A stretch of 64,000 nucleotides of DNA from Fusobacterium sp. IOR10 (lineage in GTDB: Bacteria; Fusobacteriota; Fusobacteriia; Fusobacteriales; Fusobacteriaceae). Position numbers and translations under genes: made by a program. The notes below the pieces were generated by a model. It was not told the DNA's origin and did not search any database. It saw nothing but the letters and a program-made list of their open reading frames with translations. The stretch is from positions 1 to 64,000 of the forward strand of contig NZ_WJWY01000001.1 of assembly GCF_010367435.1 (NCBI RefSeq), read 5' to 3'. This document shows positions 23,301 to 53,341 of the stretch, piece by piece (the first letter of the stretch is position 1; every line of letters starts with the position of its first letter).

Positions 23301-23334
23301 GCAATCCTTCTATTTCTAATTTTATTGGTCTCAT
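20305..23334 (-). CDS. sbcC: exonuclease SbcCD subunit C (SMC-like ATPase)
   Basis: Works with SbcD as a nuclease that opens hairpins and trims DNA ends. The 1009-aa protein has Walker A GKTGSGKSTILDG at about 35-47, a very long lysine/glutamate-rich coiled coil, the zinc-hook motif CPVCG near residue 501 at the tip, a second coiled coil, and a C-terminal ATPase half with TLSGGETFIVSLCLALALS and FFLDEGFGTLD. Length and order match the family. Its ATG shares one base with the sbcD stop (TAATG), so the two are translationally coupled. Confidence 0.95.
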   Translation of the reverse strand: MRPIKLEIEGLQSFKEKQTIDFEKLTEFGLFGIFGKTGSGKSTILDGMILALFDEIPRNKIDGNKSSLLNSINDSSKKMEVYYSFALGKDIYEIKRSYKRGTLKGQEIIKSKDAILIKNGNILANKKTEVKNILNEEFGLDVDDFSRTVVLPQGKFNEFLKLRGKEKIEMLEKIFALEKYGEKLEKKIFSEKNYWSKENEKYRNQIIGKGEINSEDIKELETLLEEKKENLFNKEQEKKEFDRIYEEEKTLRELLDKNIQLGISKDDLLKNKNIIEEYKVKIEKNDLGRELKSQMKELALLKERLEERTKEKNELEKSKIKEDINIENLKEIREKLLEKKENYAEEKASINFSIEELRELNKLYEEKNNILIKKKQQDVIKENIIIKEEEIKENTINSEKITKELKTTRDQIKLVGEIKRDILKEMEEALKEKVEYINEAKKEKREKEIKEEFLEKLIGERKVIAKEKELYLTKIKDKNKKLKESFAYRLYEELKEGEPCPVCGSTHHKKMEIGNEKTHDLELEIENLLKEKDEKIVEDSKLLEKINNLEDELNNFKIKFEKLNIEEEEIEIEKQSVLLEKEKINTEKKENKLKELNIKVIQKESEKISLSKDEKRLIGELNNLKDDYLKLTEEIKEKDIEILEKYGEISKNIIEFLKEKKMSLEKNQDKTIKLQSKIEKLIEQISDNYDATQLNTLKLEEIKGSIIKNKTELKIIIDDIHIKSTKFEVKLAGSIFKNQDEVEKSILDDEKYEQIKIEVNNYEKEMQRILTLLDENIKLINGRSQSLERWEELKIKNKELKEISETLKIDISTLEKKIQDKKILLEELKEIIKLKKNAEKKYEVAEELGKKLKGRAFVEFLSVKKLKSIVSQASNRLKRITNGRYQLLSDDECDFYVIDYFNEGSKRRCSTLSGGETFIVSLCLALALSNQMQLKGKIQLEFFFLDEGFGTLDEKLLDKVIESLENINSEEKLRVGIITHLEELKIKIIRSLEVIPAVPGIKGSCVKII

Positions 23335-24482
23335 TATTCATCATCTCCAACTAGTTTTTCAAAAAGATTTATAATTTCTTTAGATGGGGTAATTCCATCC
23401 TTATTTTTATAAAATTCTAAAAAAGCTTCTTTTATATTAATTTCTGAATAATCAATTTCTTCATCATAGGTTTCTTCCCCTAATAAAATTGGTATTATTT
23501 CAACTATATTTTTATTTTCTTTAATTTTTCTTATATCACTTGATTTTAAATGTGTTTTTGTTTTTATTTTCAAATAAATCCATTCTTCTTTTTCTTTTAA
23601 GCTATTTGAGATTTCAATGGCCTCTTCTATTGAATTTCCAATATATTCCTTTATGGGCTTATAATTTTCTAGAGGTATTTCTTTAATATTTGTATCAAAA
23701 TTTCCATTTACTTGAACTATAAAAACTTTTTTTAAAAAGTTTTTTTCAGTGGATCTATATTCTATTGGAGAACCTGAATAACAAGCTCTTTTAGAAGTGA
23801 ATTTCATAGGTTTATGAATATGTCCTAAAGCAATATAGTCAACATCTGGTAAATCTTTAACTTTAACAGCCATTGATCCACCAAGTTCAACTTCTTTATC
23901 TTCCCTTGTAACAAATAAATGTGTCATTACAACAACTGGAACATCTTCTTTATTATTTTCTATTCCTTCCTTTAATATCTCTCCTATTCTTTCAGAGTAT
24001 TTCCCATCTTCAAAAGTTTCATTTAAAGCTGCTTCACTAGGATAAGGTAAACAATATAAAAACATTTTTTTCTCTGATATTTTTAAAAGAATTCCCCCTT
24101 GAAATGATTCTAGTATTTCCATATTGGAATATTTTCCTACATTTTTAATTTCATATGGTTCTTTATAAATTATCACCCCAATATCTTTAACTAAAGATTT
24201 GGAAGCAGCTAGTCTTTCTCCATTATCATGGTTTCCTGGTATTATTACAACTCCAACTTTTCCATTTAAAGATATTCTTTTTAGTGATTCAAAAAATAAA
24301 GTTTCTGCCTCTGCTGAAGGGTTAGGAGTATCAAAAATATCTCCAGCTATTAGTATTAAATCTGGTTTTTCCCCTTGAACAATTTTCTTTAAATTATTTA
24401 TAAATTTTTCTTGTTCTTCTATTCTTTTCATTCCCTCTAATTTTTTCCCAAAATGCCAATCTGAAGTATGTAATATTTTCAT
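23334..24482 (-). CDS. sbcD: exonuclease SbcCD subunit D (Mre11-like nuclease)
   Basis: The Mn-dependent nuclease subunit. The 382-aa protein has the phosphoesterase motifs LHTSDWHFGKKLEG, LIAGDIFDTPNPSAEAE, IIPGNHDNGERLAAS, MTHLFV and LGHIHKPM in order, followed by a C-terminal capping region. The GGGGGAAAGG ribosome binding site and the ATG overlap the last codons of the upstream mtnK frame (ATGA). A TATAAT and an intrinsic-terminator-like hairpin lie 37-140 bp upstream, inside mtnK, and suggest that sbcDC may have its own transcript. Confidence 0.95.
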   Translation of the reverse strand: MKILHTSDWHFGKKLEGMKRIEEQEKFINNLKKIVQGEKPDLILIAGDIFDTPNPSAEAETLFFESLKRISLNGKVGVVIIPGNHDNGERLAASKSLVKDIGVIIYKEPYEIKNVGKYSNMEILESFQGGILLKISEKKMFLYCLPYPSEAALNETFEDGKYSERIGEILKEGIENNKEDVPVVVMTHLFVTREDKEVELGGSMAVKVKDLPDVDYIALGHIHKPMKFTSKRACYSGSPIEYRSTEKNFLKKVFIVQVNGNFDTNIKEIPLENYKPIKEYIGNSIEEAIEISNSLKEKEEWIYLKIKTKTHLKSSDIRKIKENKNIVEIIPILLGEETYDEEIDYSEINIKEAFLEFYKNKDGITPSKEIINLFEKLVGDDE

Positions 24483-25792
24483 CCTTTCCCCCTTGAAAAT
24501 TTCTTTGATTTCTCTTTAATTATAACCTCTCTTAAATAATAACGCAAGAAAACAAGGGCTTTATATTTTAATAAAAAAAGATGCAATAAGCATCTTTTTT
24601 TATTAAAATATAAAGCCCTTCCCTTTTTTATACTGTACCTTTCCTTTATAAATCTTATTCCTATTTCAAGTAGTTCCCTTTCAACTAAAATTCTTTTGCT
24701 TTTATCTTTTATTCCTTCTATTTCAATTACTTTTGTATCTCCAACAACTCTTCTAATTATTTCAAGTCCTGCTGACCCAATTGAATCTGCTAATATTTCA
24801 GACAAATACCACTGCATAAATTCCTTTTCATGATACAAAGATTTTTTTACTAATTTAGTATATTTATTTTTAAATTTAACAATAAACATGTCAAATATTT
24901 CTTCAATTGAATTAGACAACCATTTAAGAAATTCTTCCTTTTCTTTACTTTCCCCCATTGTATATTTTTTATTAATTAAAGGAAAATATAAATTACCTAT
25001 AACATTTCCTATGTCATAACCCATTGGACCATAAAAAGCAAATTCTGGGTCTATTACTTTTATACCATTTTTATTTATAAATATTGAACCTGAGTGTAGA
25101 TCCCCATGGATTAATGCTTGTGCATTGTTCATAAAATTATTTTTTAACTTTCCAACTTCCAAATGTAAACTTTTATCCTCATATAATTTTTCTTGAACTA
25201 ATTTTTTATTTTCTTCTAAAATTATATTTCTTTTTTTATAATCATCGTATGGTTCTGTAAAAACAAGGCATTCTGAAATATCACATAACTCTTTATTAAT
25301 AAAAGTTTGAACCTTATGTTTTTTTTCTCCAGAATCCATAACTAAATCAGTTGTTGGAAGTAATGTATCAACTAAAAAACTACTAATTTTATCTGAAAAA
25401 TTAGGAAATATTTTTTCTTTTAATAATTCTTTTCTTAAATTTTTAAATTCAGATATGTCTTCCATAACAATAACGCACATAACATCATCATAGTAATATA
25501 TCTTAGGTACTGATTCTTCTGAATATTTCCATTGTATTTTTAAAATTTCTGCTTCTATTTTACTTCTAGCTAAATCCAAGGGTCTTCCTGATGATCTTAA
25601 AAATTTATCAGCTTGTTTTAATACAACTGACTTATTATTGGATTCATCAATTACTCTAAAAACATAGTTTATATTTCCATCTCCAATTTCTTCACCTTTT
25701 AATTTAGAATTTTTATCAAATATATTAAAATCTTTAACATAATTTACAGCATCTTCAACAGATAGACGAAAATGTTTTTTATATTTTTCCAT
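24479..25792 (-). CDS. mtnK: S-methyl-5-thioribose kinase
   Basis: Phosphorylates 5-methylthioribose to its 1-phosphate in salvage of the methylthio by-product of SAM. The 437-aa protein has the phosphotransferase motifs HGDLHSGS at 229-236 (catalytic Asp231) and DPEFAF at 248-253, plus IGDGNINYVFRV in the ATP-binding N-lobe. Typical MtnK proteins are about 400 aa. The last 45 or so residues here are read through a perfect 31-bp palindrome (24554-24620) and do not look conserved, so the true C-terminus may lie near residue 391. The kinase assignment is firm; the C-terminal extension is doubtful. It follows mtnA by 20 bp. Confidence 0.88.
   Translation of the reverse strand: MEKYKKHFRLSVEDAVNYVKDFNIFDKNSKLKGEEIGDGNINYVFRVIDESNNKSVVLKQADKFLRSSGRPLDLARSKIEAEILKIQWKYSEESVPKIYYYDDVMCVIVMEDISEFKNLRKELLKEKIFPNFSDKISSFLVDTLLPTTDLVMDSGEKKHKVQTFINKELCDISECLVFTEPYDDYKKRNIILEENKKLVQEKLYEDKSLHLEVGKLKNNFMNNAQALIHGDLHSGSIFINKNGIKVIDPEFAFYGPMGYDIGNVIGNLYFPLINKKYTMGESKEKEEFLKWLSNSIEEIFDMFIVKFKNKYTKLVKKSLYHEKEFMQWYLSEILADSIGSAGLEIIRRVVGDTKVIEIEGIKDKSKRILVERELLEIGIRFIKERYSIKKGRALYFNKKRCLLHLFLLKYKALVFLRYYLREVIIKEKSKKFSRGKG
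24519..24547 (-). promoter_or_regulatory. possible promoter for sbcDC inside the mtnK 3' end
   Basis: TATAAT (24519-24524) lies 17 bp after TTGCGT (24542-24547) on the minus strand, between the internal hairpin of mtnK and the sbcD ATG at 24482. The -10 is perfect and the -35 poor. Its place just after a terminator-like hairpin makes a real transcription boundary plausible. Confidence 0.4.
24554..24620 (-). terminator. perfect 31-bp palindrome with intrinsic-terminator core, inside the mtnK frame
   Basis: Two 31-nt arms (24554-24584 and 24590-24620) are exact reverse complements around a 5-nt loop. The core GATGC-loop-GCATC followed by TTTTTTT is a textbook intrinsic terminator and works on either strand because A7 and T7 flank the core. 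The outer arms extend the stem to GGGC/GCCC. It falls inside codons 391-413 of the open mtnK frame. Confidence 0.75.
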
Positions 25793-25812
25793 ATTGCCCC
25801 ACCTTCTTTCTT

Positions 25813-26862
25813 TTAATAATATTGTTCTATTTCTGTTTCAAAATATTCTTTTAAATTATAAGGGGAATAGATCCCTTGATCTGTAACTACTGCACTTACT
25901 AATTCTGGGGGAGTAATATCAAAGGCAGGATAATAACCTTCCACTCCTTTTAAAGTGTTTTCTATTCCATTACAACTAGTTACCTCTCTTGGATCCCTTT
26001 CTTCAATTATAATATTTTCCAAATACTTTTCTTCATCTGGAATTCCTGTTACAAAATATGGTATTCCAAAATATTTTGCACAAATTGCAATTTGCATAGT
26101 TCCAACCTTATTAACTATATTTCCATCCATGCAAATAGTATCTGCTGCTGAAGTAAAAACATCAATTCCTTTCTCTTTTATAGTCCATGCTGGCATATTA
26201 TCTGTTATAACAGTTACTTTAAATCCTTGATTCTTTAAAACACTTGCAGTTAAACGAGCCCCTTGTAAATAAGGCCTTGTCTCAGGACAATAAAATTCAA
26301 TTTTTTTATTTTGTTTTTTTATCTCTCTTCCCATACATCCCACAATTGTTTCTCCAAAACATTGTGTCATAACTTTTCCCTCTTTAGGAAATAAATTGAC
26401 TAAATTAACAGCAACTTCTGACATTCTTCTATATCTTCTTTCTAAAGAATCTATAGTTCTTTGGAATATTGCTTCTATTGGAGAATTTCCTTCCCTTAAA
26501 GCTTTAATTCCAACTTCAGCACAAGAGTTTGTTATGAGTTTCATTCTATTAATTGTAGTTGGACGAGCGTGAGATATTATTTCTGAAGCGTTTATCAAAT
26601 AATTAATTTGTTCCTCTAATTTCATATGCTTACATTCATAAGCAGCTAAAGCCATTCCCATCCCTGCAGCTGTATATGGTCCTGCACTTTGGGTTACCAT
26701 ATCTGCAATAGCTTGCTTCACATCTTTGTAAGTTCTACATTCTACAAATTTAATTTCCCTAGGATAAACTCTTCTATCTAATATTCTTACTTTCCCATTT
26801 TCATACCAAGCTATATTTTCATATTTCAACATAAAAGCTAAGTCTTTATCCATTCTATCCAT
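25813..26862 (-). CDS. mtnA: S-methyl-5-thioribose-1-phosphate isomerase
   Basis: Isomerises methylthioribose-1-phosphate to methylthioribulose-1-phosphate. The 349-aa protein belongs to the eIF2B-alpha-like fold. Conserved blocks are GAMG-equivalent AAGMGMALAAYECK, ARPTTINRM near residue 94, EFYCPETRPYLQGARLTA with the catalytic Cys, the catalytic Asp in CMDGNIVNKVGT, and the C-terminal YYPAFDITPPELVSAVVTD. GAGGTTAAA precedes the ATG. It sits between the class II aldolase and mtnK, and no mtnB, mtnC or mtnD is near. Confidence 0.93.
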   Translation of the reverse strand: MDRMDKDLAFMLKYENIAWYENGKVRILDRRVYPREIKFVECRTYKDVKQAIADMVTQSAGPYTAAGMGMALAAYECKHMKLEEQINYLINASEIISHARPTTINRMKLITNSCAEVGIKALREGNSPIEAIFQRTIDSLERRYRRMSEVAVNLVNLFPKEGKVMTQCFGETIVGCMGREIKKQNKKIEFYCPETRPYLQGARLTASVLKNQGFKVTVITDNMPAWTIKEKGIDVFTSAADTICMDGNIVNKVGTMQIAICAKYFGIPYFVTGIPDEEKYLENIIIEERDPREVTSCNGIENTLKGVEGYYPAFDITPPELVSAVVTDQGIYSPYNLKEYFETEIEQYY

Positions 26863-26913
26863 TTTAACCTCTTTTCTTTTTATAATAAGTTAACAAGAAC
26901 TACCTGAAATTAT

Positions 26914-27579
26914 TTATATTTCCTCATGTTCATCTATTTTTTTCCCATAATCTTCAAATCTTTTCATTACTTTTTTCATTTCTTTTTCTGGTAATATACA
27001 TGGTTCCCCTATAACTTTTGAAATAAAATATAACTCACAGCAAAATTCAACATTTTCAGCTATATTATAAGCTTCACTTATATCCTTTCCTCCAGTTAAT
27101 AATCCATGGTTAGAAAGCAAAACTCCCTTATTTCCTTCCATTGATTTATATGCATTTTTAGCTAGTTCCACTGTTCCGTAAGTGGCATATTTTGCACAAG
27201 GAATTTCTTCCCCTGCCACTGCTAATAAATAATGAATTGCAGGTAATTTTTTTCCAGTGCAAGAAAGCCCTGTTGAGTATTTAGAATGAGTATGCACCAT
27301 TGCATTTATATCTTTTCTATACTTATAAAAAATTCTATGCATATCTGCTTCACTTGAAGGAACTCTATTTCCCTCTATAATTTTTCCTGTTTCTACATCT
27401 AATATCACAATATCTTCTGGAGTAATATCCAAATATCCCACTCCACTTGGAGTAATTGCCATTAGATTTTTTTCTCTATTAAATATACTTAAGTTTCCTC
27501 CAGTCCCCTTTGTTAAACCATCTGAAATCATTTTTTTCCCATAATTCATTAACTGTATTCTTTCATTTTTTAATAACAT
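26914..27579 (-). CDS. class II aldolase/adducin-family protein, probable 5-(methylthio)ribulose-1-phosphate aldolase
   Basis: A zinc aldolase of the L-fuculose-1-phosphate aldolase type, 221 aa. Zinc ligands are His96 and His98 (VHTHSKYS) and His158 (SNHGLL), and Glu77 (PSSEADMH) is the likely catalytic acid. By sequence alone it could act on fuculose-phosphate. With mtnA and mtnK directly downstream it is more likely the Ald2-type enzyme that splits methylthioribulose-1-phosphate, or its 5-deoxy analogue, to dihydroxyacetone phosphate plus an aldehyde (the DHAP shunt). It could also be MtnB, a dehydratase of the same fold, but no MtnC or MtnD partner is present. Confidence 0.75.
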   Translation of the reverse strand: MLLKNERIQLMNYGKKMISDGLTKGTGGNLSIFNREKNLMAITPSGVGYLDITPEDIVILDVETGKIIEGNRVPSSEADMHRIFYKYRKDINAMVHTHSKYSTGLSCTGKKLPAIHYLLAVAGEEIPCAKYATYGTVELAKNAYKSMEGNKGVLLSNHGLLTGGKDISEAYNIAENVEFCCELYFISKVIGEPCILPEKEMKKVMKRFEDYGKKIDEHEEI

Positions 27580-36127: not shown

Positions 36128-36182
36128 GAGAAATAAAAAAAAGACAACTTTCTATAAATAGTATGTCTTTTTTTTATTTCTC
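36128..36182. terminator. bidirectional terminator between rpmB and the CoA-binding gene
   Basis: A perfect 19-bp stem (36128-36146 with 36164-36182) contains A8 in the left arm and T8 in the right arm, so it can end transcription of rpmB on the plus strand and of the convergent gene on the minus strand, whose stop is at 36185. Confidence 0.88.
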
Positions 36183-53001: not shown

Positions 53002-53109
53002 TAAAATTTTTATTTTTTCTTAAAGAAATTCTATTAATTACATTATTACTATATATAAATATGAATTTTATTCATTTAAATTATTTTCATTCACTATAAA
53101 TTTTCAAAA

Positions 53110-53152
53110 AATAAAAAAAGCAAGTTGGTTAATTCCTCTTGCTTTTTTTATT
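53110..53152 (-). terminator. intrinsic terminator after rpmF
   Basis: A perfect 15-bp stem (53110-53124 with 53138-53152) has A7 in one arm and T7 in the other. It follows the rpmF stop by about 10 bp on the minus strand. Confidence 0.88.
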
Positions 53153-53161
53153 TAGTCTAAA

Positions 53162-53341
53162 TTACTCAGCTAAATTTAGTACTTGTTTTCCATTGTAGTC
53201 TCCGCAATCTAAACATACTCTATGAGGTCTTTTTGTAGCTCCACATTTTTCACAAGTAATCAAAGTAGTTCCTGCAATTTTGTGATGAGATCTTCTCATA
53301 TTTTTTTTAGCTTTTGAAGTCTTTTTCTTAGGTACTGCCAT
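53162..53341 (-). CDS. rpmF: 50S ribosomal protein L32
   Basis: A 59-aa protein starting [20 protein letters not shown], the standard L32 opening. It has a complete zinc ribbon, CEKC at 30-33 and CLDC at 43-46. The gene directly follows yceD, as in most bacteria, and is co-transcribed with it from the promoter at 53896-53924. The stop is TAA at 53162-53164, and GAGGGGAAACTGAG precedes the ATG. Confidence 0.95.

Follow-up and report, generated by a model that had tools for sequence, protein, structure and literature searches.

The 3' end of mtnK in Fusobacterium sp. IOR10 runs through a perfect palindrome into the start of sbcD. We put at roughly 0.6 the probability that this arrangement is an ordinary mtnK terminator, with an sbcDC promoter behind it, that a template-switch (quasipalindrome) mutation has reshaped in one lineage, with mRNA lacking a stop codon as the predicted outcome. 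It is a rare accident of known DNA and RNA processes in a single lineage, not a new system. The window is the whole 64,000-nucleotide stretch of contig NZ_WJWY01000001.1 that was analyzed, and the features of the locus are collected in Table 1.

Table 1. Features of the mtnK-sbcD junction in the window and the evidence on which each is placed.
Feature	Coordinates	Strand	Evidence
mtnK (S-methyl-5-thioribose kinase), apparent ORF, 437 aa	24479..25792	(-)	TIGR01767 and alignment with G006, G002, and G015
TAT codon 395, aligned with the G006 mtnK stop TAA and located inside the left arm	24608..24610	(-)	Codon-by-codon comparison
sbcD, whose start overlaps the TGA that closes the extended mtnK frame	23334..24482	(-)	sbcD family matches
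Predicted sbcDC promoter: TTGCGT 24547-24542, 17-nt spacer, TATAAT 24524-24519	24519..24547	(-)	Comparison with G006
Terminator core A7-GATGC-TTATT-GCATC-T7	24573..24601	(-)	Orthologous in position to the mtnK terminator of G006
Perfect palindrome with 31-bp arms and a 5-nt loop	24554..24620	.	Arm comparison, folding, genome ranking
16-nt insertion ATTAAAATATAAAGCC relative to G006, putative template-switch footprint	24557..24572	(-)	Exact reverse complement of 24602-24617

On the minus strand the genes follow one another in the order aldolase-like gene, mtnA, mtnK, sbcD, and sbcC. The first three are clustered at 24479-27579, and one report (PMC10986504) describes such a gene set as the DHAP shunt of 5'-deoxynucleoside salvage. 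MtnK matches TIGR01767 with 405.7 bits over residues 10 to 391, and in an alignment with its counterparts in three relatives (G006, G002, and G015) residues 1 to 394 are homologous, with residues 395 to 437 forming a lineage-specific extension. The mtnK frame is open ahead of the hairpin, through the palindrome, and for 94 nt after the T-run, and its TGA overlaps the ATG of sbcD. A sequence-only reading of this DNA had noticed the overrun and put it at 45 codons; the overrun itself stands, and the alignment sets its length at 43 residues past the stop of the nearest relatives. About 30 nt beyond the palindrome lies the TATAAT of the predicted sbcDC promoter, whose -10 element and surroundings are conserved in G006 and whose -35 element is weak (3 of 6 positions). 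A generic consensus scan for promoters and terminators called neither this promoter nor the terminator in the palindrome. The promoter was missed because of its weak -35 element, and the terminator, we think, because the scan skips hairpins whose pairing runs past the T-run.

Direct comparison of the arms (24554-24584 and 24590-24620) bore out the earlier description of two exact arms of 31 nt with a 5-nt loop between them and an A7/T7 core; the arms are 100% complementary. The palindrome folds at -42.7 kcal/mol (z = -11.7 against dinucleotide shuffles), and none of 200 shuffles was equally stable. A census of palindromes and hairpins covered 1,600,438 bases (1.60 Mb), which is 79% of the source genome, and there the palindrome ranks first by arm length among perfect short-loop palindromes. 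The runner-up has 28-bp arms, typical terminators have arms of 13 to 20 bp, and about 125 other palindromes with arms of at least 14 bp mostly resemble ordinary symmetric terminators. The same census returned 165 terminator-like hairpins with at least 6 T, 104 located after an ORF end and 2 inside ORFs, and the mtnK hairpin is the only one of these 2 that lies near the ORF end. Its pairing goes 19 bp past the T7 run; by the standard of 59 symmetric terminators, the expectation for 19 or more extra pairs is effectively zero, and a single other terminator among them has more than 6 pairs past its T-run.

Read on the minus strand, which is the direction of mtnK, the core of the palindrome has the makeup of an intrinsic terminator, a GC-containing hairpin (GATGC/GCATC) running directly into T7. 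The mtnK terminator of G006 (L015) lies at the same place, has a similar core (GGATGC/GCATCC with T7), and is followed by an identical TATAAT, but it has a normal stem length and an intact stop codon in front of it. Calculated without the A-tract in both genomes, the core of the window is the weaker one (-6.6 versus -9.9 kcal/mol); with its A-tract it reaches -12.4 kcal/mol. A perfect palindrome of element-like size would also suit the insertion of a palindromic mobile repeat of the REP/MITE type. We hold such an insertion to be extremely improbable, given that the 3' end of mtnK reaches into the left arm and that the core is orthologous to the G006 terminator; as a candidate, a REP/MITE repeat was rejected on the lack of a second genomic copy, the only matches being to the terminator core. 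Rfam gave the palindrome only sub-threshold matches to long-hairpin miRNA models, which are meaningless for a bacterium, and the DNA pattern of the left arm had no match among viral contigs.

Where did mtnK end before? Among six other genomes of the genus, mtnK was found only in G006 and G002, with sbcD behind it only in G006; G002 and G015 have other genes downstream of mtnK, so only G006 shares the locus. It is the nearest relative with the same gene order, and its MtnK is 87% identical; a public-genome search with MtnK returned distant relatives only and no closer strain. MtnK ends at the place of the left arm in all three relatives (...KKGNQL* in G006, ...KAGKDLV* in G002, and ...KKGMDL* in G015), at the same residue or one later. 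Because they stop there, the mtnK stop was lost in the lineage of the window, at the left arm. The sequence-only reading had proposed just this, that mtnK lost its stop and that a terminator and an sbcDC promoter were left inside the apparent gene, and had suggested aligning the MtnK C terminus with relatives as a check. The relatives' stops support the proposal, as do the normal terminator and identical TATAAT before sbcD in G006, at the same places as in the window. A conserved C-terminal extension is rejected, none being present in any relative compared.

The stop loss can be explained without the cause suggested there, an indel in the AAAAAAGGG run. The 3' end of mtnK reads ...ATA AAA AAA GGA AAT CAG TTA TAA in G006 and ...ATA AAA AAG GGA AGG GCT TTA TAT TTT AAT AAA AAA AGA TGC... 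in the window, and up to the stop the codons differ by substitutions only. An indel in the A-run was rejected on this codon alignment, which places the change in the stop codon, TAA in G006 and TAT with additional bases in the window. Over the left arm as a whole, the window has about 6 bases more than G006 and about 6 substitutions, differences that probably required more than one event.

The right arm tells of a copy. In G006 the terminator, AAAAAAAGGGATGCATATGCATCCTTTTTTT, overlaps the mtnK stop codon and is followed by CTTGTTTT, further on by GAGGTTATAATTAAA, and then by sbcD. The T7 run there passes directly into CTTGTTTT, whereas in the window 16 extra bases stand between them. These bases make up the outer right arm, and the sequence-only reading overlooked that they are an inserted copy. 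With clean borders, they repeat in inverted form the part of the left flank that adjoins the A-tract, and a CTT shared with G006 completes the arm. The window thus holds new sequence, missing in G006, that matches a neighboring segment exactly in reverse complement, as a template switch would leave it. The presumed ancestral, copy-less state is seen in G006, the only relative that shares the locus.

Could the copy have been made in vitro? Fold-back copying in vitro is known to happen at hairpins, and the window belongs to a draft assembly of 74 contigs from a single strain; an assembly or library artifact would mean that a snap-back copy at the hairpin gave a false palindrome and that the real genome has a normal stop. 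At 67 bp, however, the palindrome is shorter than a usual read, its flanks continue correctly into mtnK and sbcD, which is not expected from a simple snap-back, and long stems of this kind are found elsewhere in two genomes. We therefore regard an artifact as quite improbable.

Under the template-switch explanation, the terminator hairpin would have prompted the nascent DNA strand to fold back on itself. Synthesis beyond the T-run would then have used the left flank as template and switched back at CTT, a 3-nt microhomology, inserting 16 nt and creating the perfect 31-bp stem. The ancestral stop after codon 394 would have turned into a sense codon in the same remodelled stretch, and the insertion, which is not a multiple of three, would have set the frame open to sbcD. 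With G006 as the only relative that shares the gene order, copying may have gone left to right or right to left, and the stop loss and the insertion may have come in either order or in one step. Template switching has a precedent in the creation and maintenance of hairpins (PMC8794818). Template-switch or quasipalindrome mutations in E. coli, in yeast, and in the hairpins of RNA genes (PMC8794818, PMC7202029) likewise place a short, hairpin-primed inverted copy beside its source and yield a perfect stem in one step; the mtnK case differs from them in having an intrinsic terminator as the seed and a stem lengthened where a stop codon stood.

With its terminator inside the frame, mtnK is predicted to give stop-less mRNA, and on this analysis such messages are likely. 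The T7 run would still be where RNA polymerase mostly halts, and read-through RNA could be cleaved by RNase III within the long stem. Most mtnK messages would then be stop-less, their ribosomes would be freed by tmRNA-SmpB, and the yield of MtnK would be lowered; the 43-aa tail would be translated from read-through RNA only. Genes for tmRNA, SmpB, and RNase III (rnc) are present in the genome. Fusobacteria are classed as runaway-transcription bacteria, in which RNA polymerase outruns the ribosomes (PMC13323073). A trailing ribosome would for this reason not mask the hairpin, and termination would be favored despite translation.

The template switch and the stop loss might also be real and termination nonetheless poor, if the core is inefficient or if ribosomes open it. 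Transcripts would then read through to sbcD, MtnK would carry its 43-aa tail, and translation would be coupled to SbcD via the ATGA overlap. The open frame and the overlap of TGA and ATG agree with this scenario, and a core weaker than that of G006 may leak. We consider it unlikely all the same: the core with its T7 is intact and sits at the position of a conserved terminator, the runaway-transcription class of Fusobacteria speaks for termination, and the tail has no relative, being composed of terminator, promoter, and ribosome-binding-site DNA.

Stop-less ORFs are known from arfA, through a terminator or RNase III, and from brfA, through a terminator (PMC8012679). In mtnK, as in arfA of E. 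coli and brfA of B. subtilis, a terminator hairpin lies in the 3' end of the ORF, before the stop and inside the translated frame, with stop-less mRNA and tmRNA tagging as the predicted outcome. The likeness is one of layout, and we claim no homology. mtnK encodes a metabolic enzyme and not a rescue factor, any regulation of it by tmRNA is hypothetical, and the layout is not conserved across relatives, in that G006, G002, and G015 stop before the terminator. These differences weigh on the idea of a selected, regulated stop-less switch that would make MtnK output tmRNA dependent, as in arfA and brfA. The shared layout and the presence of tmRNA and SmpB genes speak for such a switch, but it would exist in one genome only, with the stop retained in relatives, and would act on an enzyme without a link to rescue; we judge it very improbable.

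Is MtnK still in use? The protein has 24 lineage-specific amino acid changes versus 10 in G006 (chi-square 5.8), or 19 versus 10 with a second outgroup, and MtnA and SbcD show no such excess. This mild excess is a weak hint of relaxed constraint. Overall, mtnK has a dN/dS of ~0.11 relative to G006, indicating strong purifying selection, and the enzyme is therefore probably still used.

Long stems that pass the T-run are found at other terminators as well. The frr terminator is a perfect palindrome with 28-bp arms in the genome of the window (L120:11691-11746, G000:C24) and 29-bp arms in G006 (L181:6699-6758); it passes its T-run, and its outer pairs differ between both genomes yet remain complementary, that is, they covary. 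Between two convergent genes of G006 (L181:3937-3996, G006:C9), a terminator with 28-bp arms extends past the T-run into both 3' coding ends, and both genes end in ...DKL*; at the orthologous site in the genome of the window (L120 near 8933), the hairpin is another, shorter one. Within the window, inverted repeats at 36128-36182 and 53099-53163 pair several bases past the T-run and are candidates for outward stem growth. Outward growth of terminator stems thus recurs in the genus; on the three loci compared, it may reflect either copying or selection that favors long stems. We offer only tentatively, as a possibility that we would not favor at present, the broader idea that AT-rich Fusobacteriaceae terminators seed template-switch copying and repeatedly lengthen stems past the T-run into gene 3' ends (at mtnK, at frr in both genomes, and at the convergent pair of G006), rewriting C termini, and that in mtnK this came with stop loss and a constitutively stop-less, tmRNA-handled message.

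If the template-switch explanation is true, mtnK would be a readable example of how gene expression can change in evolution when template switching of DNA makes a terminator longer at the place where a stop codon was lost. The locus would also be a natural test of how a bacterium handles stop-less messages from a working metabolic gene. It would further point to terminators as mutation hotspots at the 3' ends of genes.
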